The translations under genes and the position numbers were made by a program. Shown piece after piece: positions 1,739-19,175 of a stretch of DNA of 23,565 bases. Source of the stretch: a virus; IMG/VR virus record IMGVR_UViG_3300020595_000200, positions 1 to 23,565 of that record. One strand, 5' to 3'. Every line of letters begins with the position of its first letter. Positions within the stretch are counted from its first letter, which is position 1. The notes under the pieces are model-generated. The model saw only the letters and a list, made by a program, of their open reading frames with translations. It had not been told where the DNA came from and ran no database searches.

Positions 1739-2326
1739 TTACTGTAGCTCTAGATCACTAATGTCGGAATAAGGTTTATATTCGTGTTCAAACTTGCCTG
1801 TTGTGATGTAGGCATCTAGTAATTTGGAGGCACTTTCACACTCCTCGTATCTCATCATGTAGTGGAATCCCTGTTTGAAAACTTTCTGATCTTTCATGTT
1901 GTTGTACGAACTATCCCTGCCGTCGTAACTCATGCTCTTCAATTGTTTGTAGTGTTTTTCATTGTCCAACAGTATGGCACCGCCCCTTACATTGTCAAGC
2001 GGTTTGGTGTGTCCAAAGCTCAGGCACTGATATTGTCTGCTCCTATACATGTTTGGCTTAAGACATCTAGCACTGTCCCACACAGGAGTTCCCAGGAACT
2101 GGTACTCATCACGCCAGGGTGTCATGGAGAACTCGTACTCCACACCTAGCAATTTCATTGTCATGGGAACACTGATGTAGGTGTGTGCCGAGAACCTACA
2201 GGTCTTTATTTGCAACAATCTGAAGCAGAGCTCTATGGCATGTGTGCAACAGTCCGTGGTCACCACGTAAGGTGCACCGGTGAAAGTTGCCAATTCCTGT
2301 TCGAACTTCCTAACTGATTCTGTCAT
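1739..2326 (-). CDS. Short DegT/DnrJ/EryC1-type aminotransferase, 195 aa
   Basis: The sequence matches the PLP-binding large domain of sugar aminotransferases. It has a TTDCCTHAIELC segment (residues 23-34) where the family has its cofactor-phosphate helix, the Asp of a WDSARC motif (D84), and the Schiff-base lysine in SFGHTK (K108), followed by RGGAI. These enzymes transfer an amino group, usually from glutamate, to a keto-sugar or keto-cyclitol. The family is normally about 360-400 residues. This protein ends near residue 195, after the GFHYMMRYEECE segment, so the C-terminal small domain is missing. A paralogue at 7873-8496 is truncated at the same place, which argues against a frameshift. 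It overlaps the end of the SGNH gene by 17 nt on the same strand. Confidence 0.8.
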   Translation of the reverse strand: MTESVRKFEQELATFTGAPYVVTTDCCTHAIELCFRLLQIKTCRFSAHTYISVPMTMKLLGVEYEFSMTPWRDEYQFLGTPVWDSARCLKPNMYRSRQYQCLSFGHTKPLDNVRGGAILLDNEKHYKQLKSMSYDGRDSSYNNMKDQKVFKQGFHYMMRYEECESASKLLDAYITTGKFEHEYKPYSDISDLELQ

Positions 2327-2909
2327 GTACCTTGTCAGCCCACTGTTGGTTTTGTTCTGCTGTCATATGATTTATTGTACCTATACCCCAGTTGTCCTTG
2401 CCTCCACTGAAGGCATACAAACTTTCATCTATAAACTTTCCTGCTGTGAGTTCTATGCCTGCGTCCTTGCCTGCAGTCTCGAAAGGCCTGAAACTCCACA
2501 TCTGCACGATCTCACTGCCGACCTTTGACAGTATGTTCTGATCGTAATGTTTCAATGCGTACTCGTAGGAGATCTCATCTTTTTCATAGTTGTGCAGATG
2601 GATCCAATAGTCGTCCAGTGCCTTATAGATATTTGGATCGACTCCATCCAATGGTTGTGTGTTGGCACTCAATACATGTTCGGGGTGATACAGTCTGTAA
2701 GGTTCTGTCCAACAGAATATGGATATGTCTGGCACAGCATTCTGCTCGATTAGTTTATTGTACTCAAAGAACACACTCCATATGCTCCTGCCTGGATTAC
2801 CAAAGTATCTTATCCTGTCTGCTCCTAGTTTGCGTTGCAGGATGTTGCACCAACTCTCAGGTTGATTACTTGCACAGAAACTGTCTCCGAAAAATCCTAT
2901 CGTCTTCAT
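2310..2909 (-). CDS. SGNH/GDSL-like hydrolase, 199 aa
   Basis: The start at MKTIGFFGDSF places the catalytic block I (GDS, S10) at the N-terminus as usual; the longer frame beginning at 2945 would overlap the divergent gene. A block II-like GNPGRS (37-42) follows, and a late NH (N180-H181 in INHMTAEQN) fits block V. The block III Asn is not evident (CWTEP), so the fold is more certain than the activity. Family members are esterases or O-acetyl hydrolases/transferases that often act on glycans. The neighbours (aminotransferase, hydroxylase, glycosyltransferase-like) suggest removal or transfer of acyl groups on a surface sugar. No signal peptide is visible. Confidence 0.75.
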   Translation of the reverse strand: MKTIGFFGDSFCASNQPESWCNILQRKLGADRIRYFGNPGRSIWSVFFEYNKLIEQNAVPDISIFCWTEPYRLYHPEHVLSANTQPLDGVDPNIYKALDDYWIHLHNYEKDEISYEYALKHYDQNILSKVGSEIVQMWSFRPFETAGKDAGIELTAGKFIDESLYAFSGGKDNWGIGTINHMTAEQNQQWADKVHDRIS

Positions 2910-2934
2910 ATACTGATAATTATCTACATATATT

Positions 2935-3483
2935 ATGAAATACACATACTCTGATTGGAATCACAAGCAAGGCACGTTGCCAGTAAACTGGAAAGCCAAA
3001 GACTACGAAAGTTTGCCGTGGTACGAGAACCCCGACAAAAATCAAGGCTTTACAACAGCAGAAGAAAACTACAGCATTTACAAGGAGCGGGTAGGATGCC
3101 TCATACCCAAGTTCGAACAGGTTGGCAAAGGTGTCTTCGTTCCCGATGATGTTGACAAGATTTTTGGCTACGTGATTGATTTTTTCGATCTCACAGACAC
3201 AGTGTACGCCTTTGCGAAGTACACGCCCGGCCTTATACTGCCGTGGCACAAGGACAACTACCCAACATACGCAAGAAACAAGAAAGCCAAAGTGGAAGAC
3301 ATAGTGAGGATAATGGTATTCCTACACGACCCCTCTCCAGGCCACCAGTTATGGATCGAAGATCAGTATTGCACAGGAACAGCAGGCACATGGTTCAGTT
3401 GGCAAGGTGCAACCAAGCACATGGCGGCCAATCTGGGAGAAACCGACAGATACATGATACAAATCACGGGAAAGATTAATTAG
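2935..3483 (+). CDS. 2OG-Fe(II) hydroxylase, aspartyl/asparaginyl beta-hydroxylase-like, 182 aa
   Basis: The protein carries the double-stranded beta-helix signature of 2-oxoglutarate/Fe(II) oxygenases: HKD (H105, D107) as the first two metal ligands, a distal His in KHMAANLGETDRY (H162), and R172 as the likely 2OG-binding residue. It is closely related to the minus-strand gene at 9473-9964 (shared LPW, GHQLWI, CTG and HMAANLG blocks). The substrate is unknown; relatives hydroxylate Asp/Asn side chains or small amino acids. It sits 25 nt from the divergent SGNH gene, and its stop overlaps the convergent stop of the next gene by 4 nt. Confidence 0.82.
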   Translation: MKYTYSDWNHKQGTLPVNWKAKDYESLPWYENPDKNQGFTTAEENYSIYKERVGCLIPKFEQVGKGVFVPDDVDKIFGYVIDFFDLTDTVYAFAKYTPGLILPWHKDNYPTYARNKKAKVEDIVRIMVFLHDPSPGHQLWIEDQYCTGTAGTWFSWQGATKHMAANLGETDRYMIQITGKIN

Positions 3484-4652
3484 TAATTAGGTTTTAATAT
3501 TGTGTGACATCGCCAACTCCGGCCCCCTGGAGAACGTGCCATTCCACCTTTACGTTTCAGTCTACCTTGATACCACGCCGCCTGCAGTTCTTCATTCCAA
3601 GCATGTTTGTAGAAGTGATAGTGATTGTGTTCTAGCACAGGCATTAACTTTTGGTATACTTTTACTGGATCCTCTTGTGACAACTTCAGCATCGAGTCCA
3701 ACAACATATTAACCCTTTTTTCAAAATCAGGTTCTTGATCGTATGATTCATCGATCACCGGTGAGAAGGTCTTGAATCCTAAATCTCTGAATGCCTTGAG
3801 GTGGTGCATGGTCCCAACTATGACGAATGGTCTTTTGGCCACTATTGGTTTGGCCTCCTTTTCGCTGAACATGGACATGCGATTGTCTGATGGTATGACT
3901 GTTTCCACCACACACGAATAATGGGACTGGTTGTATATGCTAGGGTCGATTAGGTCACTGCATCGAAGATTATGATCTTCTGCTATCGATTGGGCACCTG
4001 ACTTGCTGTCATTGGGACTCACAACATCTGGTCCCCAATGGGTTATTCCTAATGCATGACAGGTTGAAAAAGTAACTGGGTCTACCGGATGCTGTTTCAA
4101 TATTCCATATAGTCTTTTGTTATGACTACACATCAGTTCCCATTGATATTTCTTATCGAATGATTGTGACAGTTTTGTCAACAACGACCTACAGATGGGA
4201 AAGGTACGATAGATGTCATTGCCTTGGAAAAACATGTCATTCAAGTAGTGCATCGGACGGTTAAGGGGTACATGAGATATTAAATTGGCAAAGAATGTGA
4301 CCGGATCATCTTTTGAGAACCTGTTGATGAAATCATCTGTGTAATAGTAAGGTCCTTCTGCGATTTTGTTTTGATAATCCCAACCGTGCTTGGGGTCTTT
4401 GTAGAACAACAAAGGCTCTCCAAGGCCCACGTACACATGATCTGACAATGACATGTGAGTCCTTATCCTGTCTTCTAGTGCGGCCAGAGATTCTAATGAG
4501 TGAAGTCCATCAAAATCCTGTAGATATGAATACTTCATGTCACAACTTGCTCTAGTGAACGAATCTAGATCAGTATATAATGTATCCGTCACATGGCGAT
4601 CACGCACACACAAATGATGCCATTTTTGATCAATGTATCTTGCTAACTTCAT
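3480..4652 (-). CDS. Glycosyltransferase-like protein, 390 aa
   Basis: The C-terminal region has a block at residues 262-280 (FSEKEAKPIVAKRPFVIVG) followed by LGFKTFSPVIDESYDQEPD. The same block occurs in the proteins at 9961-10992 and 16851-17894. Its S/TEK...KPI...PFV..G pattern resembles the nucleotide-sugar side of GT10 fucosyltransferases and exostosin-like GT-B enzymes. I therefore infer a glycosyltransferase fold; donor and acceptor are unknown. The N-terminal 250 residues are divergent and may be acceptor-specific. The C-terminus (from about 365) is Arg/Gly-rich and unlike its paralogues. The gene lies head to head with the amidinotransferase operon, 38 nt apart. Confidence 0.65.
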   Translation of the reverse strand: MKLARYIDQKWHHLCVRDRHVTDTLYTDLDSFTRASCDMKYSYLQDFDGLHSLESLAALEDRIRTHMSLSDHVYVGLGEPLLFYKDPKHGWDYQNKIAEGPYYYTDDFINRFSKDDPVTFFANLISHVPLNRPMHYLNDMFFQGNDIYRTFPICRSLLTKLSQSFDKKYQWELMCSHNKRLYGILKQHPVDPVTFSTCHALGITHWGPDVVSPNDSKSGAQSIAEDHNLRCSDLIDPSIYNQSHYSCVVETVIPSDNRMSMFSEKEAKPIVAKRPFVIVGTMHHLKAFRDLGFKTFSPVIDESYDQEPDFEKRVNMLLDSMLKLSQEDPVKVYQKLMPVLEHNHYHFYKHAWNEELQAAWYQGRLKRKGGMARSPGGRSWRCHTILKPNY

Positions 4653-4678
4653 TTTGTCTACTTATCGTTATAGTAGCA

Positions 4679-4686
4679 CTTAAATA
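4679..4686 (+). promoter_or_regulatory. T4-type late promoter of the amidinotransferase operon
   Basis: CTTAAATA is followed by CCTT and then a GTG in the frame of the first amidinotransferase. The same CTTAAATACCT string precedes the gene at 15373. The 4-nt distance fits the near-leaderless pattern in the window and helps fix the GTG at 4691 as the start codon. Confidence 0.6.
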
Positions 4687-4690
4687 CCTT

Positions 4691-5605
4691 GTGCATATAT
4701 CTACCAAAAATGAATACGGAGAGTTGAAATCGATCATAGTCGGAAGTGTGGAAAACTTCGAGTGGCCAGAAAATGACAAAGAGTTTGATCAAGGAATTGC
4801 TCGATCCACTTATCACCAAACGCTCCACAGAGGCAAACCGCCACAGCATGTTTTGGATGATGCCAGCAGAGACTTGGATCTGTTGTCAGCAATTTTAGAA
4901 TACAGAGGCATTCAGGTCTACAGACCTGAGATAGTTAAACCTCATTGGGCCTACTCTGCCAGAGACATATTGTTGACAGTGGGAAACAAAGTCATTCAGT
5001 GTCCGACTCCATTTTCCAGTCGTGCTAACGAATTGGATTTGTATCCTTTCCTAGAAAATACACAATGTGAAATTATCAAGGCCCCTAGACCTAGCTCACA
5101 AGAAGATCCAATCTTTGATGCGGCCAACGTCTTAAAGATGGATGACAGGCTGTTGTATTCTCTTTCGCACTCGGCCAACGAAGCAGGCGCAGACTGGTTA
5201 CAACAACAGGTGGGAACCGAGTTTGAGGTAGTGAAATGGCAAGTGGTTGATCATGAAATCACACACATCGATTCAACTCTGGCCTCATTGGCCAAAAACA
5301 TTGTATTGATAAATTCATCTAGAGTAAAAGACGACCAACTACCAAACTTCATGCAGGACTACACTAAGATATGGGTTGACGACGTGACTGCTGGTACCTT
5401 CCATAACTTTCCATACGCTTCCAAATGGATAGGGATGAATGTCCTCTCACTAGATCCAGAAACAGTGGTGGTTGATGAGATTCAGACACAGTTGATAGAA
5501 AATTTAGAGGCTCATGGATTCAAGATAATTACTACATCAATGAGACAATCAAGAACACTTGGCGGTGGTTTCCACTGTGTGACCTGTGACATGGAAAGAA
5601 AATAA
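4691..5605 (+). CDS. Amidinotransferase (glycine/inosamine amidinotransferase family), 304 aa
   Basis: With a GTG start the protein begins MHISTKNEYGELKSIIVG, which aligns with the start of the paralogue at 8493-9479. The frame stays open upstream to an ATG at 4580, but that would add a hydrophobic stretch and cross the promoter and divergent gene. The family's catalytic triad is present: Asp in FDAANVLK (D143), His in THIDST (H192) and the nucleophilic Cys in GGFHCVTCD (C296). Members move an amidino group from arginine onto an amine (GATM, StrB). The likely acceptor here is an amino-sugar or cyclitol made with the nearby aminotransferases. Its stop shares an A with the next start (TAATG), so it is the head of a four-gene operon. 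Confidence 0.85.
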   Translation: MHISTKNEYGELKSIIVGSVENFEWPENDKEFDQGIARSTYHQTLHRGKPPQHVLDDASRDLDLLSAILEYRGIQVYRPEIVKPHWAYSARDILLTVGNKVIQCPTPFSSRANELDLYPFLENTQCEIIKAPRPSSQEDPIFDAANVLKMDDRLLYSLSHSANEAGADWLQQQVGTEFEVVKWQVVDHEITHIDSTLASLAKNIVLINSSRVKDDQLPNFMQDYTKIWVDDVTAGTFHNFPYASKWIGMNVLSLDPETVVVDEIQTQLIENLEAHGFKIITTSMRQSRTLGGGFHCVTCDMERK

Positions 5606-6702
5606 TGTTTAAAGTGACTCACCAATGGAATAAACTTAAAACATGTGTAGTAGGCAGTGCCTATCCCCCAGAACTGTTTGACTTCATCAAAGATGTAAAT
5701 TTAAGACAAATCTTTGAAACATTGGCAATAGAGACTGAGGAAGACATAAAAAAACTTGTGACTTTCCTCGAAAAATTTGGGATAAATGTGGTAAGGCCAA
5801 CCATGCCAAAAACCTTTAACGAATTCAAGATATCAAATGGATACATAGCACCCCCAATATCTGCTAGAGACTTCATGGCCATGATAGACGATAAACTTTA
5901 CTATCCTGGATTGCCTAATTTAAATCATGCCTGGATGGAGTTTGCTGGCACGAGAAAGATCAAGTCAAAAGATGCTCTACAGGATAAACAATTGAATCAA
6001 CAATGGTTGGAGTTTCAAAAGCAAGACAAATACATTTTTGACCAGAAGATTAGGTTCTATAAAGACATCTTCACCCTTGCACTGCAACAAGGAAATGAAG
6101 TTGTTGCCAGCCCAATAGATTACATGAACTCATCATTCATTACGAGGTTAGGCGATAGAATGATAGTGGGAACGCAGAATTATCATGACAATAATGACAG
6201 TATCAAGGATACATTTTCTCAGATGTTTCCAGACAAGGCCATATATGTGGCATCGAGTGAAGGCCACTCGGATGGATGTTTTACTCCCATATCCGAAGAT
6301 CTTATAATATCAGCCTACGACACGATAGATTACAACAAGATATTTCCTAATGCAGAAGTAATCTCGGTTCCAGCGGAGATAACTTTGAAAGACGATAAAT
6401 TCAAAAAACAGATGATGACTGCAGAACACAAATGGTTCTTGAAGGGCATGGAGAACAACAAGGATCTAGTGGAAATGGTTGATTACTACTTTAATACTTG
6501 GATCGGTAACGTCAAAGAAACAGCATTTATGGTCAACATATTGATGCTGGACGAAAAGAATGCAGTTTGTTCCACAGATAACAAGCAGGTCAGAGAAGCC
6601 ATGCACAGACACGGCGTTGAATTACACGTTACACCTTTTAGACACAGATGGTTCTGGGACACTGGAATACATTGCCTTACCCAGGATTTGGACAGAGAAT
6701 AA
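5605..6702 (+). CDS. Divergent amidinotransferase-family protein, 365 aa
   Basis: The N-terminus (WNKLKTCVVGSAY) and C-terminus (DTGIHCLTQDLDRE, C357) match the amidinotransferase fold, and a His is present in GHSDGCFTP (H221). The segment aligned with the catalytic FDAAN of its neighbour reads MNSSFITRLGDR, so the expected Asp appears to be N175. It is also longer, with an insertion around residues 105-160. It may act on a different substrate, act as a hydrolase, or be a non-catalytic partner. It is coupled on both sides by TAATG overlaps, so equimolar expression with the upstream enzyme and the dehydrogenase is likely. Confidence 0.78.
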   Translation: MFKVTHQWNKLKTCVVGSAYPPELFDFIKDVNLRQIFETLAIETEEDIKKLVTFLEKFGINVVRPTMPKTFNEFKISNGYIAPPISARDFMAMIDDKLYYPGLPNLNHAWMEFAGTRKIKSKDALQDKQLNQQWLEFQKQDKYIFDQKIRFYKDIFTLALQQGNEVVASPIDYMNSSFITRLGDRMIVGTQNYHDNNDSIKDTFSQMFPDKAIYVASSEGHSDGCFTPISEDLIISAYDTIDYNKIFPNAEVISVPAEITLKDDKFKKQMMTAEHKWFLKGMENNKDLVEMVDYYFNTWIGNVKETAFMVNILMLDEKNAVCSTDNKQVREAMHRHGVELHVTPFRHRWFWDTGIHCLTQDLDRE

Positions 6703-7883
6703 TGTTTGACATTTTTAACACAAATAAAATTATATATGCAACAAAGATAGGCTTCATAGGTCTGGGCAAACTAGGAATGCCGTGTGCAGAAGCGATACGA
6801 AAAAAAGGTTTCCATGTTGCAGGATATGACATCGCACGTAAAAGCAGTGACCTAGTAGAGATCAGGGATTCCATAGAAGACGTGTGTCGTGACAGAGACA
6901 TTGTGTTCGTGGCCACACCAACACCACACGAGGACGGCTACGACGGAAGGACTCCTACAAGTCATTTGCCTGTGAAAGATTTTAACTATGATGCGGTCAA
7001 GAATGTGCTGTCCAAATGCGACAAACACATGGGACCGAATGATACCCTAGTGCTTATTTCTACTGTACTTCCAGGTACGATAAGAAGAGAATTACAACCG
7101 TTAGTAACAAACACCAAACTAATGTATAACCCATATCTCATAGCCATGGGCACAGTGGCCGATGACATGATCAATCCCGAGATGATAATGATAGGTTCTA
7201 AAAACGGAATGGCAGGCAAAACTTGCAAGGTCAGGTCAGAACTTTTGGAGAGTTTTTATAACCAAGTGTGTGACAACTTCCCACGCATGGAGTTTGGCAC
7301 ATTCGAGGAAGTGGAGTCGATGAAGATATTCTACAATACATTCATCAGCAATAAAGTAGCATTGGTCAATATGATACAGGATGTGGCACACAAACTAGGA
7401 CACATGAACGTGGATGTGGTTACAGGGGCCTTAGCAAAGAGCACTAAACGTCTTGTAAGTCCTGCCTACATGAAAGCAGGAATGGGTGATGGCGGAGCGT
7501 GCCACCCAAGAGACAACATCGCACTGCGTTGGTTGGCCAAAGAACTGTCATTGGGATATGATATGTTTGAATCAATAATGACTGCACGTGAAAAACAAGC
7601 GGAGACAATGGCCATAGCAATTTTAAAACATGGAAAGAATATCGCTTTCACTTCAGACAGTTACAAGCCAGGGACAAATCTAGTAGACGGTTCCAGCTCT
7701 CTGCTCTTACAACACTATGTGAAAAAACATGGTGGTATAATAGTTGACGGCGTGGACGAACCTGTAGAGGTAATAGTGAGGATACACGAGTCTGACCAAG
7801 TTACGGCGGACAATAACACAATAATTTTTGATCCATGGAGATCATACCCCGAAGCGGAGAACGTTGTACACTATGGCAAATAA
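6702..7883 (+). CDS. UDP-glucose/GDP-mannose dehydrogenase family enzyme, 393 aa
   Basis: The domain order is typical. An NAD-binding Rossmann motif GFIGLGKLG lies near residues 17-25. The central domain has the lysine and asparagine of ESMKIFYNTF (K208, N212). The thiohemiacetal cysteine is in GDGGACHPRDN (C267, D271). The C-terminal domain has SYKPGTN (320-326). Members oxidise a nucleotide-sugar C6 alcohol to a uronic acid in two NAD-dependent steps. The length is close to the family norm of about 400-440. The ATG at 6702 overlaps the previous stop (TAATG); the longer frame from 6648 is rejected because it lies inside the upstream gene. The sugar cannot be predicted. It probably supplies an acidic sugar nucleotide to the same pathway as the amidinotransferases. 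Confidence 0.88.
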   Translation: MFDIFNTNKIIYATKIGFIGLGKLGMPCAEAIRKKGFHVAGYDIARKSSDLVEIRDSIEDVCRDRDIVFVATPTPHEDGYDGRTPTSHLPVKDFNYDAVKNVLSKCDKHMGPNDTLVLISTVLPGTIRRELQPLVTNTKLMYNPYLIAMGTVADDMINPEMIMIGSKNGMAGKTCKVRSELLESFYNQVCDNFPRMEFGTFEEVESMKIFYNTFISNKVALVNMIQDVAHKLGHMNVDVVTGALAKSTKRLVSPAYMKAGMGDGGACHPRDNIALRWLAKELSLGYDMFESIMTAREKQAETMAIAILKHGKNIAFTSDSYKPGTNLVDGSSSLLLQHYVKKHGGIIVDGVDEPVEVIVRIHESDQVTADNNTIIFDPWRSYPEAENVVHYGK

Positions 7884-8496
7884 AAAAATTGGCATGGACA
7901 CAGTGGAGCAATTCGAAAAAGAAATTGCAAACTTCTACGATGCACCCTATGCCGTTGCAACAGACAGTTGCACACACGCAATAGAACTTTGTCTAAGGCA
8001 CAGGCCACCAGCACCGGGCATAGAGTTGTCTGTACCTGCAAGGACCTACATCAGTATTCCTTTCACTTTGATGAAATTGGATCTCCGATGGAATTTCGTT
8101 GATCAGGTGTGGCAAGATTATTATTACATCGGCGGCACAAACATCATAGACGCCGCGGTGTTCTTCCAAAGAGGCGGATACATCAGAGGAAACTATATGT
8201 GTCTAAGTTTCCAATTCAAAAAGTCATTGAGCCTAGGACGCGGTGGCGCAATACTATGCGACAATCTAGCCGACTACGAGCAATTGAAGATGATGAGTCA
8301 TGATGGCAGGAAAATTGATGCTCCATGGCGTGATCAAAACATAGCAGGAATTGGATACCATTATTACATGACTCCTGAAACGGCAGATCTAGGTATAAAC
8401 AAACTCCAAGACGCTGTCCCAAAACCAACACAGGGCAGTGACGATTATCCATATCTTCCAAACATGGATGTATTCAAATACAATAATAAAAATTAA
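7873..8496 (+). CDS. Short DegT/DnrJ/EryC1-type aminotransferase, 207 aa
   Basis: This is a paralogue of the 1739-2326 protein. It has TDSCTHAIELCLR (30-42), an IDAAV Asp (D93), the PLP lysine in SFQFKK (K117 by alignment), RGGAI (123-127), and a terminal GYHYYMTPETADLG block. The C-terminal domain of full-length family members is absent, as in its paralogue. The ATG at 7873 overlaps the dehydrogenase end by 11 nt. A second ATG at 7894 aligns better with the paralogue's start and is a real alternative. As the last gene of the amidinotransferase operon it could provide the amine that is then guanidinylated, if the truncated form is active alone or as part of a complex. Confidence 0.82.
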   Translation: MANKKIGMDTVEQFEKEIANFYDAPYAVATDSCTHAIELCLRHRPPAPGIELSVPARTYISIPFTLMKLDLRWNFVDQVWQDYYYIGGTNIIDAAVFFQRGGYIRGNYMCLSFQFKKSLSLGRGGAILCDNLADYEQLKMMSHDGRKIDAPWRDQNIAGIGYHYYMTPETADLGINKLQDAVPKPTQGSDDYPYLPNMDVFKYNNKN

Positions 8497-9479
8497 ATAT
8501 TTTTTCGTTCTACATCAACAGTAATACAATGGAAACAGCCACCCAGTGTCCGAGCATGTCTCATGGGTAGCATGGCAGAATCTATATTGTATCTTGCCAA
8601 CTCTTTCCTAAGATTTTGTTGATTTTCTTCTAGCACCACTAAACTTTCATTGATAGAAAGAAGATTTACGTTGATCCATGGGCTGGCATTACAGTGGACT
8701 GGGTGATGTCCTATGTCAACAGGCTCCGGTGCATTAATTATATCCCAATTACGCAATGGCAAAGGTAACTGTGACTTGTCCTTAATCCGCGAGGGATTTA
8801 CTAATAAGAGTCCTTCCCTGAGAAAAGCAATGGTGCTGTCCAAATGCATATAGGAATACACGTCTTCGATGGCATGTACTCTAGTAGACTGTCCCATTAT
8901 CTCCTGTAAAGTATCAGCGCCTTTACGATTACCACTGTTGCTCACAAGGTAATACAGATCATCATTGTGTTTTAGAATGTTGGCGGCGTCAAAGCAAGGT
9001 TCTGTTTCGTTCAAGGCAAGCACCTTAGGGTTGCCTACGCATCCAAAATTATACAAACTGTCTTCACGTTCTATAGTGATGTGATGCCTAACTGCATCGT
9101 ATCCATCAAAGAGTTTGTCATATGCCCGATGTTCATTGGCCCTCGCCCTTAAAGACATTGGTGTATAGACCACATTGTTGCCATGCACAAGCACTGTGTC
9201 TCTTGGACAGTATGTGTAATATTCCGGATCATGATCTTTATCTGGCCTCAACACCTTTATTTTTTCACCTTTTAAAAAATCAATAAAGATATCAATGTCT
9301 TCATTCGCTTCATCAATCACCTGCTGTGGATACAGGCCTGGCATTGGCAGGTCGCTGTCTTTCGGCCTGTCAGCGTAATTCACACACCTCAGGCTGATGT
9401 CATTGATTGGTATCTTGGCTCCTGTGGCATCTCCCACGATCACTGTCTTAAGTTGGCCGTATTCGTTCCTGCTTAACAT
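8493..9479 (-). CDS. Amidinotransferase, 328 aa
   Basis: The start at MLSRNEYGQLKTVIVGD is chosen because it aligns with the paralogue at 4691 and overlaps the upstream gene by only 7 nt; the frame is open to 9587 inside that gene. The catalytic residues are intact: D164 in CFDAANILK, H212 in MHLDST and C318 in GCFHCITVD. It shares RTLGG, DTLQ/DWLQ-type and PSRIKD blocks with the 4691 enzyme, so the two are real paralogues on opposite strands. The expected reaction is transfer of an amidino group from arginine to an amine. It is the last gene of a minus-strand operon with a glycosyltransferase-like protein and a hydroxylase. Its stop overlaps the convergent aminotransferase stop by 4 nt. Confidence 0.85.
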   Translation of the reverse strand: MLSRNEYGQLKTVIVGDATGAKIPINDISLRCVNYADRPKDSDLPMPGLYPQQVIDEANEDIDIFIDFLKGEKIKVLRPDKDHDPEYYTYCPRDTVLVHGNNVVYTPMSLRARANEHRAYDKLFDGYDAVRHHITIEREDSLYNFGCVGNPKVLALNETEPCFDAANILKHNDDLYYLVSNSGNRKGADTLQEIMGQSTRVHAIEDVYSYMHLDSTIAFLREGLLLVNPSRIKDKSQLPLPLRNWDIINAPEPVDIGHHPVHCNASPWINVNLLSINESLVVLEENQQNLRKELARYNIDSAMLPMRHARTLGGCFHCITVDVERKNI

Positions 9480-9964
9480 TTCAATCCAGTGACTTGTAAA
9501 ATATATCGATCTGCATTTCCTAGGTTTGCGGCCATGTGTTCCACACCATATCCCCACCCAAAGTAACTTCCGGCCGAGCCTGTGCATATTTGATCCTGTA
9601 TCCAGAGCTGATGTCCGGCCTTTTGATCATGCAGAAAGACAATGAATCTTTGTATATCTTGAACTTGCTCTTTTTTGATCTGATTCCTTGTGATGTAGGT
9701 AGTATACTTGTCGGTATGGTAGGGTAAAACTTTTCCAGGTTCCAGTTTATTGACAGCAACAACTTTTTTTGTGAGTGGTAAATCTTTAACAGCATCATAG
9801 AAAACGCTCAATAACTTTTCTTGGAAGCACATGGATACTCCAACGTTATAATTGGTTGTGTCGACTACCGCATTGAATTTTTCTTCATGACGATCGTTCT
9901 CGAACCATGGCAGGCCTGTGTAATTTTGTTCCGTCCATGTGACTGGAATTTTGCCTTTGATCAT
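9473..9964 (-). CDS. 2OG-Fe(II) hydroxylase, 163 aa
   Basis: This is a paralogue of the 2935-3483 enzyme, with metal ligands H83 and D85 (YHTD) and H143 (EHMAANLG) and the 2OG arginine R153 (DRY). The N-terminus is about 15 residues shorter than its paralogue, and the loop after the LPWFEN block differs. It couples to the upstream glycosyltransferase-like gene through an ATGA overlap at 9961-9964 and to the downstream amidinotransferase by a 7-nt overlap. The operon therefore pairs a hydroxylase with an amidinotransferase. The substrate could be arginine-, Asp- or sugar-linked; nothing in the sequence decides this. Confidence 0.82.
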   Translation of the reverse strand: MIKGKIPVTWTEQNYTGLPWFENDRHEEKFNAVVDTTNYNVGVSMCFQEKLLSVFYDAVKDLPLTKKVVAVNKLEPGKVLPYHTDKYTTYITRNQIKKEQVQDIQRFIVFLHDQKAGHQLWIQDQICTGSAGSYFGWGYGVEHMAANLGNADRYILQVTGLKC

Positions 9965-10992
9965 TTGCCACTTACCCCTGTATCGTGATTGTTGGTCAAT
10001 CTCGGATTGAAGTCTGAATTGTCTACGTGACGTTGTATGCTGATGCGATCAGCACCCATGAACCATCCAGATGAGACCGATATTGGCAACTGTATTGGAA
10101 TAGATCTCTTGGCAAAGAAAGTGTTTCTGTTGTGTTGCCTGATTTCAGCAGTTTGATCGTAGAAGTCTTTGGTGCTTACCGCGAGGAAGTCTTTACAGCA
10201 TTGAACTATTTTATCTATCCTTCGATGGTTGTCTGGTTCTTGGTCGTAACTCTCATCAATCCATTTGTCAAACGTAAGGTAACCCTGGGATCGCATGTAT
10301 ACTAGGTACCCAGGTGGCCCAAACACCACGAAAGGATGCTCAGCCATCAAAGGTTTATAAATTTTCTCACTTAACTGGTATGATCCTTTACCGGTGTTGG
10401 TTTCCATGACCACGCTCAACTTTGAGTTCCTGAAGTGGGGTTCATGAGCTACCAAGCAAAGTTCACGAGGATTATCTTCGTAGCCCTCTATGTCATCTTC
10501 TATTTCGTACATACAATTATTGTCCGGTGATTTGACACTGACGTAACTTTTTCCTAACAATGAATGTTTCTCCAAAGCCCGTATCATATCTATTCTTTCA
10601 GGATGGTCACGTCCGGTGTATATCAGGAAGTCCTTGCTTTTGACAGAATGATCTATCCTTCGAAGATCTTTATTGATCAGTTGGATCTCCATGCAGTAGT
10701 TGTTGTGCTGTCTGTATGCAAAAGGGAATTTATCATCATCGCCCTCTGCCAACACCAATACTTTTTCTTGATTGTTGCGGATTAATTTTACGAAATCCTT
10801 ATTGAACCAATTGTGGAATGACATGTTTTCATTGTGGACCACGACGATCATTTCATTTTGTTTGAGCAGGTTTCTTAATCTCTCAAGATTGTCATGCATC
10901 TGGCTGGTGGTGTTCATTAGATCAATGTAGTGTTCGGTCTGTATAATAGGTATGTGTTTTTGCCGTGGAGTTTTGACAAGATTGTTAAACAT
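9961..10992 (-). CDS. Glycosyltransferase-like protein, 343 aa
   Basis: Residues 207-225 (LSEKIYKPLMAEHPFVVFG) and 238-253 (YLTFDKWIDESYDQEP) give the same C-terminal block as the proteins at 3480-4652 and 16851-17894. An upstream FLIYTGRDHPERIDMIRAL segment (122-140) resembles the hinge-region pattern (FLxLN...R.HR...L) seen in the 16851 paralogue. A GT-B-like glycosyltransferase is inferred. The ATG at 10992 is used, but M26 is possible. It is the first gene of a three-gene minus-strand operon and lies 21 nt from the divergent tandem-paralogue cluster. Confidence 0.65.
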   Translation of the reverse strand: MFNNLVKTPRQKHIPIIQTEHYIDLMNTTSQMHDNLERLRNLLKQNEMIVVVHNENMSFHNWFNKDFVKLIRNNQEKVLVLAEGDDDKFPFAYRQHNNYCMEIQLINKDLRRIDHSVKSKDFLIYTGRDHPERIDMIRALEKHSLLGKSYVSVKSPDNNCMYEIEDDIEGYEDNPRELCLVAHEPHFRNSKLSVVMETNTGKGSYQLSEKIYKPLMAEHPFVVFGPPGYLVYMRSQGYLTFDKWIDESYDQEPDNHRRIDKIVQCCKDFLAVSTKDFYDQTAEIRQHNRNTFFAKRSIPIQLPISVSSGWFMGADRISIQRHVDNSDFNPRLTNNHDTGVSGK

Positions 10993-10997
10993 AAATA
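10990..10997 (+). promoter_or_regulatory. T4-type late promoter before the tandem paralogue cluster
   Basis: CATAAATA matches the NATAAATA late consensus reported for marine T4-like phages. It lies 16 nt before the ATG at 11014 and partly overlaps the divergent start region at 10992. Confidence 0.55.
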
Positions 10998-11013
10998 TAC
11001 GTACTTAATCAGA

Positions 11014-11373: not shown

Positions 11374-11376
11374 ATA
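11369..11376 (+). promoter_or_regulatory. T4-type late promoter overlapping a stop codon
   Basis: GATAAATA includes the TAA stop of the 11014 gene and lies 22 nt upstream of the ATG at 11399. A stop codon followed by ATA can make this string by chance, so confidence is moderate. Confidence 0.45.
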
Positions 11377-11398
11377 AAACTGTTTACAGGTAACAAAT

Positions 11399-11755: not shown

Positions 11756-11757
11756 TC

Positions 11758-12108: not shown

Positions 12109-12115
12109 CAGTCAC

Positions 12116-12149
12116 AAAAAAAGGGCGACACAATTAAGCACCGCCCCTT
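12116..12149 (-). terminator. Rho-independent terminator, best on the minus strand
   Basis: Read on the minus strand, AAGGGGCG and CGCCCTTT form a stem with one G-T pair around a loop of about 15 nt, followed by a run of T (complement of 12116-12122). It serves the gene at 12163-12534. On the plus strand the same dyad could also slow transcription from the 11014-12108 cluster, but the T tail there is weak. Confidence 0.75.
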
Positions 12150-12162
12150 AGAATAGATTTAA

Positions 12163-12647: not shown

Positions 12648-12675
12648 CCTGCTGGAAAATGCAGTGTTTATGCTG

Positions 12676-13575
12676 TTAATCCTGTCTCCTTGTTCCACAA
12701 GTTTCTGCACATACTTTGTTACATGAGTCTGAATCCCACGTGCTCCTCAATTCCTCGAAACTTTCCAGATGTACTTTAGGTCTGTCAATGTGGCCAAAAC
12801 CATGGTAACAACAAGGGTATATTTCTCCCGAACTGTCCACATACACACTGTTGTTGACAATAGTATCACAGGTAATTTTTGTACCCTTATAGGACTCTTC
12901 TGGTAAATCATAGGGTTCATAACGCATCTTCAAATATTCGTCAACATCAAACTCACGTGGTGTGGCATCCTTGTCTGGCGGTAGTATCCAGTGACTGATA
13001 GACTTGTCTGGTTGTATAGCGGGCATGTCATTTCTGCCTTCGTCACGCACGACAAACTTGTTGAATCCCAATGATTGGCTTAGTTTCCTCGCTTCTTCTT
13101 CCTGGTGCATGTTGTGTTGGAATTTGATAAACTGCCATACTGCATCTCCGCCTGCCTCCGTGAATGCTTTCACACGTGATATCAGTTTGTCCCAATTCAC
13201 TCCTTGCCTGTATAGGTGATTGGTGTCTTCAAGTCCGTCTATTCCAAAAATTATTCGGGTTCCCTTCTTTGTGGCCAACTCTCTGTATGTTTCCACCTTG
13301 CCTATGCCTCCGTTTGTTGCTATCTCCACTTCGATATTGTCCATGGCAGACATTTCAGCAATGTTTGGATTCATCATGGGATCACCGTGATTACCACAAT
13401 AGAGAATCTTTCTAACATCTTTATATGTGTTTAAGAGTTGGTGTAATTGCTCTACACCAAGATTTTTCTCTTTGAAAAAACCCTCTAATGGATATCCATA
13501 ACCATTACGTGGACATCCAGGACACCGTGCATTACAGTAACTAGATGCTTCTATGTGTAGATGTTCTATTATCAT
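12676..13575 (-). CDS. Radical SAM protein with SPASM/twitch-type C-terminus, 299 aa
   Basis: The CNARCPGC motif (C14, C18, C21) is the CxxxCxxC signature that binds the 4Fe-4S cluster cleaving S-adenosylmethionine. CGNHGDP (60-66) fits the SAM-binding GGE-type strand. The C-terminus has further cysteines (C236, C255, C256, C285, C289, C293), typical of auxiliary-cluster SPASM/twitch domains. Such proteins modify peptides or catalyse sugar or cofactor chemistry. The gene follows a 2OG-Fe(II) oxygenase by 8 nt in the same operon, so two oxidative enzymes probably act on one substrate. The substrate is not evident. Confidence 0.88.
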   Translation of the reverse strand: MIIEHLHIEASSYCNARCPGCPRNGYGYPLEGFFKEKNLGVEQLHQLLNTYKDVRKILYCGNHGDPMMNPNIAEMSAMDNIEVEIATNGGIGKVETYRELATKKGTRIIFGIDGLEDTNHLYRQGVNWDKLISRVKAFTEAGGDAVWQFIKFQHNMHQEEEARKLSQSLGFNKFVVRDEGRNDMPAIQPDKSISHWILPPDKDATPREFDVDEYLKMRYEPYDLPEESYKGTKITCDTIVNNSVYVDSSGEIYPCCYHGFGHIDRPKVHLESFEELRSTWDSDSCNKVCAETCGTRRQD

Positions 13576-13583
13576 CGTGAATC

Positions 13584-14114
13584 TTATTTTCTTATCTGGA
13601 AGTAAGAGTAACTTGTTAATCTTTGCACGTTAGCAGAAACTTTATTCTCCATGCCATGCAGTTGTTCACTGTTGTTAAACATTATGTAGCCTGAATTTTT
13701 GGTAAAATTAAAGGCTTTCCGGACCTCATCCTTGTTGTAAAATACAGTTCCGAGTTGCTCAGGTGCATCTGATAGAAAAATCTGCATGACATAATCTACA
13801 CCATCGTTGTCTACATGCTTATGACAATCAAACCCTTCGTAGTCTAGCCAGAATCTTGTGTCAATCTGTGTGATATCTAATCCCACTGCTTTACCAATTA
13901 ATTCTTTTTTACTATTGTATTCCTGTTCTATGGATTCAAACACGGATCCAGGTAGAACGACGAGTCTTTTTCTTTTCCAATCCTCTTGCCATTCTTGTGT
14001 TGTATATGGCAGTGATTCCAATGCCTCACGTGAAAGACTCTCGATGGTTTCGGTATCTAGCACATCTGTGATCTGGAAAAGATCCACTCTTTCATCAACT
14101 GGGTTGATCTGCAT
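13584..14114 (-). CDS. 2OG-Fe(II) oxygenase (prolyl-hydroxylase-like), 176 aa
   Basis: It carries an HxD metal motif in CHKHVDNDG (H100, D102), a distal His in EQLHGMEN (H153) and an Arg in VQRLTSY (R165), as in 2OG-Fe(II) oxygenases of the P4H-like type common in T4-like marine phages. It is not closely similar to the two beta-hydroxylase-like paralogues in the island. Its ATG shares a base with the stop of the DUF1178 gene (TAATG), and the radical SAM gene follows 8 nt downstream. Peptide or protein hydroxylation is likely; the target is unknown. Confidence 0.8.
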   Translation of the reverse strand: MQINPVDERVDLFQITDVLDTETIESLSREALESLPYTTQEWQEDWKRKRLVVLPGSVFESIEQEYNSKKELIGKAVGLDITQIDTRFWLDYEGFDCHKHVDNDGVDYVMQIFLSDAPEQLGTVFYNKDEVRKAFNFTKNSGYIMFNNSEQLHGMENKVSANVQRLTSYSYFQIRK

Positions 14115-15674: not shown

Positions 15675-16892
15675 ATGTTGATAGAAGATGTCCTAACAGA
15701 ATTTAAAAGGACACACCTTGAACACATCGAGGACATCGTAATAACCGACGGCTACGAAGGTGGCAAGGCAGTTCTTGAATATTTCAGAGGATTGTTACTT
15801 ACTCTCAAAGGCACAAGCTCAGAAGCAATGAGTGTGTCAGTCAAGTGGGATGGTGCACCTGCCGTGGTATGTGGGATCAACCCAGACAACGGCAAGTTCT
15901 TCGTGGGCACAAAGTCAGTTTTCAATCCAGGAACTCCAAAGATCAATTACACAAAGAAAGACATAGCAAACAATCACGGCACGGACGATCTAGGACAGAA
16001 ACTTTTAAAGTGTCTTGTGCATATTAAGAAACTGAACATACAAGGTGTTGTACAAGGAGACTTGTTGTACACAGACGAGGACATCACAAGGAAGAACATC
16101 GATGGAAAGCCTCACTTGACGTTCACTCCAAACACAATAACATACGCTGTACCAGAAGGTGGTGAGTTGGCAAAACAGATAGACAGAGCCAAGGTAGGGA
16201 TCATATTCCATACAACATACAACGGCGACACACTGGCAGACATGACAGCATCGGGTGGAGCGGATGTAAGTTCGTTCGCCAAAAGCAATGATGTGTTCTT
16301 TGACAATGCAACATACAAGGACGTGTCAGGCAGTGCCAAGTTCACTGACGATGAAACAAAAAATTTCTACAATGGTATTGAGAAACTAGAAACACTGTTG
16401 AATGCTGTTCCTAGAGACCTAGCAAGTGTGTTGGGACAGAATGCAGACTTCGTGCCCACGTTCATGATCTACATAAACGCAATGGTCAAGCAAGGCCAAC
16501 TGCCAAGTAACGTCAATCAGTTCCTACAAGGATTCAAAAAGTTCTATGCAGACAGAATGCAACAGCAGATGTCAGGCCTAAAAGCACAGAAGGCGTTGGC
16601 GTTGAGACAGGACAAGATCAAACAGATGCCAGTGTTCCTTAACAGGGCCAAGAAACCATTACAGGCAATGCTGACTTTCTACAAAGCGGTACAGACCATG
16701 AAAGCCTTTGTTCTTAAGAAGATGAATCAAGCACAGGCAATAGGATCATTTCAACAAACAGATGGCGGACTACAAGTGACAGAACCAGAGGGTTTCGTTG
16801 CCGTTGACAAGTCAGGAAGTGCTGTTAAGTTGGTAGATAGGTTGGGATTCTCAAGAAGGAATTTGACGGGTATCAGCAAATTCAAGAAATAG
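15675..16892 (+). CDS. DUF6267-like KWDG protein, possible covalent nucleotidyltransferase, 405 aa
   Basis: Residues 57-63 read KWDGAPA, matching the KxDG motif I of ATP/NAD-dependent ligases and capping enzymes, where the Lys takes the nucleotide. A VVQGDLLY segment lies where motif III would be, and the C-terminus has EGFVAVD (E372, G373) and VKLVDR (K385), which fit motifs IV and V. The GKFFVGTKSVFN and KINYTKKDI blocks match, from memory, a protein family of T4-like marine phages (DUF6267). A long Gln/Lys-rich helical insertion (about 280-355) separates the motifs. A role in nucleic-acid end sealing or adenylylation is inference. GAGGA gives it a good ribosome site. Confidence 0.75.
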   Translation: MLIEDVLTEFKRTHLEHIEDIVITDGYEGGKAVLEYFRGLLLTLKGTSSEAMSVSVKWDGAPAVVCGINPDNGKFFVGTKSVFNPGTPKINYTKKDIANNHGTDDLGQKLLKCLVHIKKLNIQGVVQGDLLYTDEDITRKNIDGKPHLTFTPNTITYAVPEGGELAKQIDRAKVGIIFHTTYNGDTLADMTASGGADVSSFAKSNDVFFDNATYKDVSGSAKFTDDETKNFYNGIEKLETLLNAVPRDLASVLGQNADFVPTFMIYINAMVKQGQLPSNVNQFLQGFKKFYADRMQQQMSGLKAQKALALRQDKIKQMPVFLNRAKKPLQAMLTFYKAVQTMKAFVLKKMNQAQAIGSFQQTDGGLQVTEPEGFVAVDKSGSAVKLVDRLGFSRRNLTGISKFKK

Positions 16893-17894
16893 ATCCAAGG
16901 TTTTATTAATTTCTAAACTTAATTTTTCTTTATTGAACATGGTATCGCAGTTGTGTTTTCTCAACGCTTTGGTCTGCAGGTAAATGTCTTGCCACGGAGC
17001 GTCACGTAATCTATCACACACATCAACAATAGTGTTTATTCTCACATCAGGATCTCTATCGAGGTCGTACACTTCCTCGAAATAGTTGTTGAAAGTCCTG
17101 AAACCCATTTCTTTTAATTTCTGTAGATACAAATAGTTTCCATGTACTACGAAAAGGTGTTGTGCCATGATCGGTTTCCATAACTTCTCTGTTATGAAAA
17201 CTTCAAAGTCATTGTCATTGGTCTCGGACACAATACTACAGGCCGTGTCATTGTAAGGTTTCTCGTATATTTCTTGGTCCATGCCATACTGTGGATAGTC
17301 TTGAGCCCACGGTAGTTCATATTCGGCAGGCAGTTTCTTCTCTGGCCAATGTGTGTGTAAACTATTTTCTAGTATTCCGTTCTTTGACAACTTGTTGTAA
17401 AGTTTTTCTCTGTGTGGCCTGTGCGTCTTGTTGAGATATAGGAAATCGTATTTTTTGTTAGAGTGATCAAAGTTGAAAGTTTTTCCCTCGTGTAGTTTGT
17501 ACATGTAATACCAAAACCAAGTGGCACCACCTGTCCACTTGATGTGATCCACATCAATATTGGGGCATGTATATTCTGGATGATTTCTTATGTTTTCTAG
17601 TGATTCCCATGGGTTTGCTTTAATGAAAACGAATCCTTGGCTCTTAAGCAGATCTACTCTCCTGTGCAGTTCGTCCATGAATTCTGGGTTGTCCTTCAAT
17701 CGATCATTGGCAGAACGTGTGTCGATAATGGCGAACCTCCTGTCATAGGAGTCAAGATTGTAGTCGTGCAGGGTATAGTACTCTCCGGTCATATCGAATG
17801 ACTGTCCCTCCATGGAGTGCATCGAAATGTAACTCTCCAACTCCGGATGATTTCCGGTCTTCATGACATCGGTTAGAATAAAGTTTCGTTGCAT
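16851..17894 (-). CDS. Glycosyltransferase-like protein, 347 aa
   Basis: This is the clearest of the three glycosyltransferase-like paralogues. It has KYDFLYLNKTHRPHREKL (148-165), the pattern FLxLN...R.HR seen in GT-B-like phage enzymes, and FITEKLWKPIMAQHLFVVHG (233-252), closely matching the TEKLW motif of GT10/exostosin-type enzymes. It then has FRTFNNYFEEVYD (265-277). Donor and acceptor are unknown. It lies outside the main island, convergent with the KWDG gene (42-nt overlap of 3' ends) and divergent from the 17914 gene, with only 19 nt between starts. Confidence 0.7.
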   Translation of the reverse strand: MQRNFILTDVMKTGNHPELESYISMHSMEGQSFDMTGEYYTLHDYNLDSYDRRFAIIDTRSANDRLKDNPEFMDELHRRVDLLKSQGFVFIKANPWESLENIRNHPEYTCPNIDVDHIKWTGGATWFWYYMYKLHEGKTFNFDHSNKKYDFLYLNKTHRPHREKLYNKLSKNGILENSLHTHWPEKKLPAEYELPWAQDYPQYGMDQEIYEKPYNDTACSIVSETNDNDFEVFITEKLWKPIMAQHLFVVHGNYLYLQKLKEMGFRTFNNYFEEVYDLDRDPDVRINTIVDVCDRLRDAPWQDIYLQTKALRKHNCDTMFNKEKLSLEINKTLDLFLEFADTRQIPS

Positions 17895-18475: not shown

Positions 18476-18592
18476 ATGATAAAATCGATTTGCGAATTGT
18501 GTGGATGCGAACAGCACTGTAGACAATCCTGTGCAGAATGCAGGGACTGTCCCGATTGTGCATGTAAAGAGTGCAATGCCGGGCCCAAATAG
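18476..18592 (+). CDS. Cysteine-rich mini-protein, 38 aa, probable zinc binder
   Basis: Ten cysteines occur among 38 residues (6, 9, 11, 15, 19, 22, 25, 28, 30, 33), in a CxxCxC-x3-C-x3-C-x2-C-x2-C-x2-CxC-x2-C layout resembling metallothioneins or small multi-zinc knuckles. It starts one base after the upstream stop and overlaps the FkbM start by 17 nt, so it is placed as a normal operon gene. Metal binding is a strong inference from composition; the biological role is unknown. Confidence 0.72.
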   Translation: MIKSICELCGCEQHCRQSCAECRDCPDCACKECNAGPK

Positions 18593-19175
18593 TTTCTGGG
18601 TACTTTACGGACAGCACACCAAACCCACTTACCTAGAAGATGCAGGCAATGGACAGCAGGCACAAAGAGATGCCGCTCTGCAATACATCAAGCAGTGGCG
18701 TGTGTGCCTGGACATAGGTAGCAACATAGGACAGTGGACGAGACCACTCTCTAAGAAGTTTGAAAGTGTGGTGTGCTTCGAACCAAATCCCAACTTCAGA
18801 GAATGCTTCGAGAAGAACATACAAGAGAAAAATGTATTGCTATGGCCTTACGGATTATCAGACAAAGAACACAAGGCAAAGCAAGACTTCAACTCAACTG
18901 TGTTACATGAAGAGGATGGAGACATAGACTGTAGGACACTTGACAGTTTCGGATTGACCAATGTAGACTTCGTTAAGATAGATGTTGACGGCTTTGAGAT
19001 ACCATTACTGAACGGAGCGAGGGAAACATTGAGCAAGAACGATCCCGTGATCAACATAGAGATGAAGAGGGACAAGAGGACGGATATTGTTGTGAAATGT
19101 GAGTCTATACTGAAAGATCTCGGCTACAAGTTCCAAAAACGCACAAAGAGTGACGAAGTGTGGCTTAAATCTTAA
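18576..19175 (+). CDS. FkbM-family methyltransferase, 199 aa
   Basis: The SAM-dependent methyltransferase motifs are in order: DIGSNIGQ (46-53, motif I), FEPNP (68-72, acidic strand end that binds the SAM ribose), a CRTLDSFG block (119-126) and KIDVDGFE (134-141), which are hallmarks of FkbM-type O-methyltransferases. Members often methylate sugars or polyketides. The ATG at 18576 overlaps the Cys-rich gene; a longer frame from 18501 lies wholly within it. It is a candidate tailoring enzyme for the glycan made by the island, although about 8 kb away. Confidence 0.85.
   Translation: MPGPNSFWVLYGQHTKPTYLEDAGNGQQAQRDAALQYIKQWRVCLDIGSNIGQWTRPLSKKFESVVCFEPNPNFRECFEKNIQEKNVLLWPYGLSDKEHKAKQDFNSTVLHEEDGDIDCRTLDSFGLTNVDFVKIDVDGFEIPLLNGARETLSKNDPVINIEMKRDKRTDIVVKCESILKDLGYKFQKRTKSDEVWLKS

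Follow-up and report, generated by a model that had tools for sequence, protein, structure and literature searches.

In the streptidine pathway of streptomycin biosynthesis, an inositol dehydrogenase of the Gfo/Idh/MocA family supplies scyllo-inosose, the DegT-family aminotransferase StsC makes an amine, and the amidinotransferase StrB guanidinylates it. To our knowledge, guanidino sugars are rare and known mainly from antibiotics. Sugar and lipopolysaccharide gene clusters have been described in jumbo and T4-like cyanophages, in which sugar-nucleotide enzymes, glycosyltransferases (GTs), 2OG oxygenases and methyltransferases form variable, phage-borne sets (PMC7824862); the words amidino and aminotransferase are absent from the text of that review. 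For instance, the clusters of the phages Bellamy and HTVC008M share a dehydrogenase family with the locus described here; however, a carbamoyltransferase gene occurs there together with a NadE-like one, and neither an amidinotransferase nor a half-size DegT gene (mini-DegT, see below) is present. In the Campylobacter phages CP220 and CPt10, radical SAM genes and nucleotide-diphospho-sugar-transferase genes surround an amidinotransferase gene (PMC2853527), but its product is very divergent (24.6%) and no relative of the mini-DegT, the UGD-family dehydrogenase or the 2OG oxygenase was found in the 17 kb region. The Synechococcus phage S-SCSM2R (PQ898602) has an island at about 222-244 kb with a mini-DegT, a radical SAM protein, a 2OG enzyme, an amidinotransferase and several GTs, for which GenBank gives names only and no pathway description was found. 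Its mini-DegT and amidinotransferase match mini-DegT 2 and AT1 of our locus at 53% and 33.5%, respectively, whereas the GTs belong to other families and the genes are present in a single copy.

The window analysed here comprises 23,565 nucleotides of the IMG/VR virus record IMGVR_UViG_3300020595_000200, which derives from a marine phage. A first-pass annotation had listed 11 genes at positions 1739-10992, all of which were confirmed as open frames. The families of this island recur jointly near homologues on many different phage contigs, which is more than chance would give. The island is a variant of known phage sugar clusters, and no published description of such an island was found. As in the streptidine pathway, a StrB-like amidinotransferase with a full catalytic triad adjoins a DegT-family aminotransferase; in contrast to that pathway, the DegT proteins are half-size, the partners are UGD, 2OG and GT-like genes, and no member of the inositol-dehydrogenase family (Gfo/Idh/MocA) is present among the window proteins scanned, which counts against the cyclitol product that had been considered.

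Three amidinotransferase-family genes had been claimed, and two of them are StrB-like with the triad intact. AT1 (4691..5605, plus strand; phage clade B) probably starts at the GTG at 4691, giving 304 aa as in its relatives, and matches StrB1 (PDB 1bwd) with E=1.2e-45. AT3 (8493..9479, minus strand) falls into phage clade A in the tree. StrB1 is the best match among solved structures for both proteins, and a profile of AT3 relatives matched it with E=9.2e-84, as compared to E=8.6e-50 for AGAT. An Asp-His-Cys triad (Asp254, His303 and Cys407 in AGAT) is the catalytic triad of StrB/AGAT enzymes (PMC3684758). In the viral copies of the AT1/AT3 family, His and Cys are conserved in 129 of 129 sequences and Asp in 128. 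By sequence, both AT1 and AT3 qualify as true homologues of arginine amidinotransferases, their catalytic residues being intact. Acceptors across the superfamily include glycine, lysine and other amines (PMC3684758), so the likeness to StrB leaves the acceptor unfixed; moreover, the residues at AGAT positions 300 and 302 differ between the phage clades and fit no single characterised type. The third gene, AT2 (5605..6702, plus strand), does encode a member of the superfamily, but a divergent paralogue from a separate clade (support 100/97), in which the Asp of the FDAA motif is missing in 25 of 25 sequences. Three separate phage amidinotransferase clades are thus found together in this one island.

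The two DegT-type aminotransferases, mini-DegT 1 (1739..2326, minus strand; 195 aa) and mini-DegT 2 (7873..8496, plus strand; 207 aa), both score above the Pfam DegT cut-off (46.5 and 61.7 bits), which bears out the family assignment; their half size had been overlooked. Full-length DegT/DnrJ/EryC1/StrS proteins have about 360-400 aa, including a C-terminal small domain. The 191 open frames of the mini-DegT family span 198-239 aa from stop to stop (5-95% range), and the longest, with 266 aa, does not reach full DegT length. The PLP-binding Lys as well as the pyridine-N Asp and the Ser are invariant in 102 of 102 sequences, and an AlphaFold2 model of mini-DegT 2 (pLDDT 95) matched sugar aminotransferases in Foldseek (E=1.5e-10). 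The DegT proteins of the window form a distinct family of about 200 aa that retains the PLP lysine and is predicted to represent a PLP-type sugar-aminotransferase core lacking the C-terminal domain. We know of no precedent for a half-size DegT protein as an active transaminase. A gene for an SDR epimerase-like protein immediately precedes the mini-DegT gene in two jumbo phages and lies within about 2.6 kb of it in two others.

The gene at 6702..7883 (plus strand; probable start ATG 6702) encodes a nucleotide-sugar 6-dehydrogenase of the UGD family that passes the Pfam UDPG_MGDP_dh cut-offs, in agreement with its earlier description as a UDP-glucose/GDP-mannose dehydrogenase-type enzyme. The catalytic Cys, Lys, Asn and Thr are kept in 93 of 93 family members. 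However, Glu161 (human numbering; NPEFL motif) is replaced by Tyr and Glu165 by Met, each in 91 of the 93, and the loss of these residues makes a uronic-acid product uncertain. Due to the loss of Glu161, the enzyme could possibly halt at the 6-aldehyde, which would then be aminated by mini-DegT. In Bellamy as well as in HTVC008M, the neighbour of this same variant is the NadE-like gene, an amidating type; since it hints at a carboxylate, the 6-aldehyde reading was not adopted. An amidinotransferase is present in only four to five of 38 UGD-seeded loci; the dehydrogenase is thus a general sugar enzyme. Long dehydrogenase frames of 781 and 1039 aa were considered as inteins, which was ruled out because they are fusions to the GT-like domain.

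The two 2OG hydroxylases proposed earlier are 44% identical to each other: oxygenase 1 (2935..3483, plus strand; about 180 aa), which is Asp/Arg-hydroxylase-like, and oxygenase 2 (9473..9964, minus strand). The assignment is upheld by the HxD...H metal triad, which is present in 126 of 126 homologues, and the distal Arg is present in 122. Oxygenase 2 matches Pfam Asp_Arg_Hydrox below the cut-off (E=0.0026), Pfam and PHROG scans gave no match for oxygenase 1, and the best match among solved members, AtsK, is weak (E 0.016). The GT-like proteins a (3480..4652) and b (9961..10992), both encoded on the minus strand, belong to one family without a match in the Pfam and PHROG scans, and a profile of this family returned nothing useful from PDB sequences. 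The best Foldseek matches of the GT-like b model (AlphaFold2, pLDDT 80) are GT-B enzymes, with E=3e-3 at best, and fusions of the domain to the dehydrogenase and to the 2OG enzyme each occur in some phages. These weak fold matches and the fusions hint at a glycosyltransferase, and the label is kept provisionally. The same applies to the SGNH-hydrolase-like protein (2310..2909, minus strand), a possible sugar O-acetyl esterase, for which the label derives from motifs: the GDSF block and the C-terminal NHMT are invariant in seven homologues, and Pfam and PHROG gave no match.

Island-like genes continue beyond position 10992. A radical-SAM/SPASM protein identified by Pfam (12676..13575, minus strand) is a recurrent partner of the module, as its relatives adjoin mini-DegT and amidinotransferase genes in S-SCSM2R and other loci. 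A 2OG-like protein (13584..14114, minus strand) had no match in the family scan and recurs near a few modules; this loose association suggests that it is probably accessory. GT-like protein c (16851..17894, minus strand) belongs to the family of a and b and is conserved next to DUF6267 in relatives. An FkbM-type methyltransferase (18501..19175, plus strand; Pfam 54.2 bits) may act as a sugar O-methyltransferase; its weak mads_2 match was the sole exception in a PADLOC search that otherwise found nothing on the island.

Among the dereplicated viral loci with AT1 relatives (AT-B, n=48), 45 contain a 2OG oxygenase, 42 a GT-like gene and 38 a UGD gene; among those with AT3 relatives (AT-A, n=35), a mini-DegT is found in 30, a 2OG oxygenase in 29 and a GT-like gene in 26. 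The co-occurrence of these families in related phages, which had been suggested as a check, is thereby established, and so is the linkage of aminotransferase and amidinotransferase genes anticipated from streptidine biosynthesis. By contrast, none of 52 cellular amidinotransferase loci has any module partner. Most AT-B loci have no DegT gene within 10 kb, and amidinotransferases without partners, named by the first-pass annotation as a refuting case, were seen in two records of just 18 and 28 kb, which is a weak counter-example; a DegT protein is encoded somewhere in each of the 12 amidinotransferase-bearing phage records that reach 195 kb or more. The gene order is conserved (GT; UGD, 2OG, AT), a tail-fibre-like gene follows the amidinotransferase gene in 38 loci at a median distance of 766 bp, and many modules have fibre-like and virion genes at their borders. 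Taken together, these sequence comparisons identify the gene set as a real conserved phage module that is widespread in large phages and was not seen in the bacterial genomes examined. A DUF6267-seeded scan, intended to serve as a neutral control from viruses, instead yielded contigs closely related to the window phage and therefore shows within-lineage variability only: among 12 same-lineage contigs with the full 10 kb upstream flank, an amidinotransferase is present in three and a UGD gene in nine.

On balance, we favour, with somewhat more confidence than doubt, a phage-specific glycan-modification island that makes a guanidino sugar and attaches it. The sequence itself demonstrates the homology, the intactness of the active sites, the genetic linkage, the fusions and the restriction to phages; the order of the reactions, the acceptor, the product and the target are inferred. 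The island would comprise two interleaved copies of one pathway and a divergent third amidinotransferase. A nucleotide-linked hexose would be oxidised at C6 by the dehydrogenase, mini-DegT would transaminate a keto group of the sugar, and AT1 and AT3 would transfer the amidino group of host arginine to the sugar amine, so that ornithine is released and a guanidino sugar is formed. Hydroxylation of the acceptor or of an intermediate could be the task of the 2OG oxygenase, and transfer of the sugar that of the GT-like proteins, most likely to a virion surface protein (a tail fibre or decoration protein) or to an existing surface acceptor. The outcome would be a strongly basic, host-atypical glycan whose unusual, positively charged sugar chemically resembles a portion of streptomycin.

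The same chemistry could instead serve the remodelling of host lipopolysaccharide or capsule during infection, for instance to block superinfection. This is the published reading of jumbo-cyanophage sugar clusters (PMC7824862) and it agrees with the variability of the island among close relatives, but an initiating sugar-phosphate transferase (PF02397) or a Wzx flippase (PF01943) was found in none of 16 module records, of which 13 have at least 195 kb and for which the controls were positive, so that host machinery would be needed. Together with the fibre-like and virion genes around many modules, this makes attachment to virion proteins more likely than a new host polysaccharide, and we regard the host surface as an unlikely target. 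A slightly smaller chance is given to amidinotransferases that use small amines such as glycine, amino acids or polyamines and yield either guanidinoacetate-like compounds or some small secondary metabolite, with the sugar genes as mere neighbours. Indeed, AGAT, SxtG and HsvA belong to the same superfamily, surveys record GATM/GAMT encoded by viruses (PMC11360552, PMC8226683), and radical SAM, 2OG and halogenase-like neighbours resemble metabolite clusters (PMC7824862). However, the much better match to StrB1 than to AGAT and the tight linkage to UGD, GT-like and mini-DegT genes, none of which lie near cellular homologues, argue against it.

DNA had also been named as a decorated target, and a base that is aminated, guanidinylated or glycosylated could protect against restriction. 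Glycosylated phage DNA is known in some cases (PMC12619734), and the GT-like model weakly resembles the T4 DNA alpha-glucosyltransferase (TM 0.43). Yet a thymidylate-synthase/hydroxymethylase-family gene is present in only four of the 16 module records and absent from the complete S-SCSM2R genome, and the window is devoid of any recognised base-modifying gene, which makes DNA hypermodification highly improbable. A chance assembly of unrelated accessory genes, as they accumulate in phage genomes, would fit the variability within the lineage, but it is contradicted by the co-occurrence over dereplicated loci, the conserved order, the fusions and the invariant active sites, and is hardly credible.

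Returning to the virion guanidino sugar, we put forward, as possible rather than probable, that large phages have a dedicated pathway for it that is absent from the cells examined and combines a minimal 200-residue PLP sugar aminotransferase with StrB-like phage amidinotransferase clades. If so, mini-DegT would be an unusually small sugar transaminase, showing how little of the DegT fold catalysis needs, and the module could serve as an enzyme source for making basic sugars. If phages make guanidino sugars, the module would explain many entries of viral surveys that are annotated as "glycine amidinotransferase" or as a short "DegT", and arginine consumption would be predicted during infection. 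Such a new modification of the virion or envelope would affect adsorption, charge and the evasion of host defences and, if it is indeed the virion that is modified, would coat it with cationic glycans, a type of virion decoration that is as yet undescribed.

The virus fragment of 23,565 bases derives from a T4-like marine phage, because the relatives of its DUF6267 protein (15675-16892) are found chiefly in Synechococcus and other cyanophages, with Pelagibacter phage HTVC008M being the nearest (42%). All eleven genes that the first-pass annotation had assigned to a guanidino-sugar island (1739-10992) were found in the window, in the order mini-DegT1 (-), SGNH-like (-), 2OG-1 (+), GT-a (-), AT1 (+), AT2 (+), dehydrogenase (+), mini-DegT2 (+), AT3 (-), 2OG-2 (-) and GT-b (-), and most gene ends abut or overlap. 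The contig L001 carries a near copy of the island (identities of 93% for AT1, 89% for DegT1 and 82% for GT-a). Three tandem paralogous small proteins (10930-12108; about 120-145 aa) adjoin the island and are repeated in L001. Moreover, the region 20600-21283 looks by eye like a sulfotransferase (LIRHPEERWWSG motif), and family searches gave no match.

The co-occurrence that the earlier reading proposed to look for in related phages was confirmed by profile searches and dereplication by shared 4-mers. The best 80 loci per scan were taken, which biases the counts towards relatives of the query, and many loci are cut off by record ends. Of 48 anchors of AT-B, the clade of AT1, 45 have a 2OG oxygenase, 42 a GT-like, 38 a dehydrogenase and 5 a mini-DegT gene in their neighbourhood, with the recurrent order GT-like (-) followed by dehydrogenase, 2OG and AT (+). 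The 35 anchors of AT-A, the clade of AT3, were accompanied by mini-DegT (30), 2OG (29), GT (26) and dehydrogenase (23) genes, and the 60 mini-DegT anchors by any amidinotransferase in 29 and a 2OG gene in 33 cases. None of these partners lies near the 52 cellular amidinotransferase anchors. Judged from these neighbourhoods, the gene set is a module, and each amidinotransferase and mini-DegT query has relatives in more than 570 viral stretches. Although AT-B loci mostly lack a nearby DegT gene, the genomes carry one: 12 of the 26 records searched reach 195 kb or more, and every one of these has a DegT gene, which is of the mini type in 9 and exclusively full-length in 3. The contigs L172 and L173, assigned to MAGs of Verrucomicrobia and Bacteroidetes, carry module genes that branch among viral sequences and are probably misbinned phage contigs.

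Several other genes accompany the module. A UvdE-family protein (L046 12984-14015; Pfam 131 bits) follows the amidinotransferase at a median distance of 1.8 kb in 51 AT-B loci; it could serve UV repair or perhaps the pathway, as its TIM barrel fold also occurs in sugar isomerases. In three contigs (L136 3948-6218, L152 7737-9998, L154 7684-9903), the gene run of the dehydrogenase and mini-DegT also includes a large radical-SAM protein, whose N-terminal domain looks by eye to be of the cobalamin type. Proteins of 1455-1875 aa built of FDFSWHPDPTDPPYIYxWG-like repeats are encoded beside the module (L136 12044-16408, L152 14949-20573, L154 14835-19400), and a shorter relative (L261 10844-12472) lies among GT and AT2 genes. 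The 342-kb phage L261 combines an AT2-type gene with two FAD-dependent-halogenase-looking frames, an epimerase and a pair of full-length DegT genes (6383-18296), a further island of another kind, for an amino sugar or a metabolite.

Among proteins of solved structure, AT1 best matches the streptomycin-pathway enzyme StrB1 (PDB 1bwd; 1.2e-45), ahead of HsvA, SxtG and AGAT, and a profile of AT3 relatives likewise matched 1bwd (9.2e-84) better than AGAT (8.6e-50). The catalytic triad of AGAT, Asp254/His303/Cys407 (PMC3684758), is conserved in the viral sequences (128/129, 129/129 and 129/129, respectively). By contrast, the AT2 group retains His (24/25) and Cys (25/25) and lacks Asp in all 25 members; therefore, AT2 may have a different activity. 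A maximum-likelihood tree built from 95 sequences places the phage enzymes in clade B with AT1 (32 rows; support 99/99), clade A with AT3 (18 rows; 100/100) and the AT2 clade (100/97), and each clade has one member in the window. The cellular enzymes group together (90/88), and a few long-branched viral sequences lie outside the three clades.

DegT1 and DegT2 each comprise about 200 aa. As the longest of 191 viral open reading frames of the family does not exceed 266 aa from stop to stop, the mini-DegT proteins form a discrete half-size family rather than a truncation of one gene. The PLP-binding Lys, the pyridine Asp and the adjacent Ser are unchanged in 102/102 sequences. The AlphaFold2 model (pLDDT 95, pTM 0.91) matched the sugar aminotransferases GDP-perosamine synthase, ArnB and AHBA synthase at an E of about 1e-10, with TM-scores of about 0.7 when normalised to the length of the model and 0.4 when normalised to that of the matched enzymes. 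At E<=1e-12, genomes from the phyla to which Oscillatoria (292 genomes) and HTCC2080 (398 genomes) belong gave no match to the profile; viral records, the positive control, matched at 1e-67 to 1e-83. Where mini-DegT lies far from the amidinotransferase, an SDR epimerase-like gene immediately precedes it in two contigs (L258, L260) and is located within about 2.6 kb in two others (L257, L259), which fits a sugar substrate. The metagenomic huge-phage genomes LR756502 (L169, 642 kb) and LR756511 (595 kb) also encode mini-DegT, in the former 4-5 kb from a dehydrogenase. In a 329-kb phage, Gfo/Idh/MocA-like and zinc-alcohol-dehydrogenase-like frames (by eye; L256 3778-5554) precede mini-DegT by a few kb and would fit the supply of a keto-sugar or inosose.

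According to the alignment, the dehydrogenase (6702-7883) retains Cys276, Lys220, Asn224 and Thr131 (numbering of the human enzyme). However, 91 of 93 viral enzymes have Glu161 and Glu165 replaced by Tyr and Met, the motif NPEFLAEG being swapped for NPYLIAMG, which suggests an altered oxidation chemistry. Only 4-5 of 38 dehydrogenase-seeded loci contain an amidinotransferase, and thus the enzyme serves phage sugar metabolism in general; its neighbours in Bellamy and HTVC008M are carbamoyltransferase and NadE-like genes. In L133 (3080-4144; from 1625) and L131 (from 4780; from 3325), the gene is broken at the catalytic GGxC motif by an insert, possibly an intein. The 2OG family keeps HxD...H in 126/126 sequences, and its profile had no match at E<=1e-6 in the 398 genomes of the HTCC2080 phylum. 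Structure searches with the GT-like model (pLDDT 80) ranked GT-B enzymes at the top (PglA, GtfC, EXT1/2; best E=3e-3), with T4 alpha-glucosyltransferase further down. The glycosyltransferase assignment is supported, independently of the GT-B match, by fusions of this domain: to the dehydrogenase in L136 and L137 (781 aa) and L152 (1039 aa), and to the 2OG enzyme in L136, L145, L152 and L154 (583-611 aa).

Sugar clusters of jumbo cyanophages, and a cluster with a halogenase and a carbamoyltransferase, have been described without reference to amidino enzymes or aminotransferases (PMC7824862). In the clusters described from Campylobacter phages, a 'putative glycine amidinotransferase' accompanies radical SAM genes (PMC2853527), and viral surveys enter K00613 as an amino-acid gene (PMC8226683). 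Cyanophage S-SCSM2R has mini-DegT, radical SAM, GT, 2OG and AT genes side by side. A search of journal literature, few subscription titles among it, turned up no publication in which the module or a guanidino sugar of a phage is named.

In the proposed pathway, an NDP-hexose would be oxidised, aminated by mini-DegT, guanidinylated by the amidinotransferase from host arginine, hydroxylated by the 2OG enzyme and finally transferred by the GT-like protein. The presence of two gene sets in the window hints at a pair of related sugars or positions. Searches of 16 records that carry the module, 13 of them 195 kb or longer, revealed neither an initiating sugar-phosphate transferase nor a flippase, and controls gave matches. 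Furthermore, 38 AT-B loci encode a protein, starting a median of 766 bp after the amidinotransferase, whose sequence reads as coiled-coil-like at the N-terminus and fibre-like at the C-terminus; family searches gave no match. Together, these two observations make direct glycosylation of a virion protein more likely than the assembly of a new polysaccharide on the host. The island varies among close relatives of the phage (of 12 contigs with the full upstream flank, 3 have an AT and 9 a dehydrogenase gene), as would be expected of a surface chemistry under selection.
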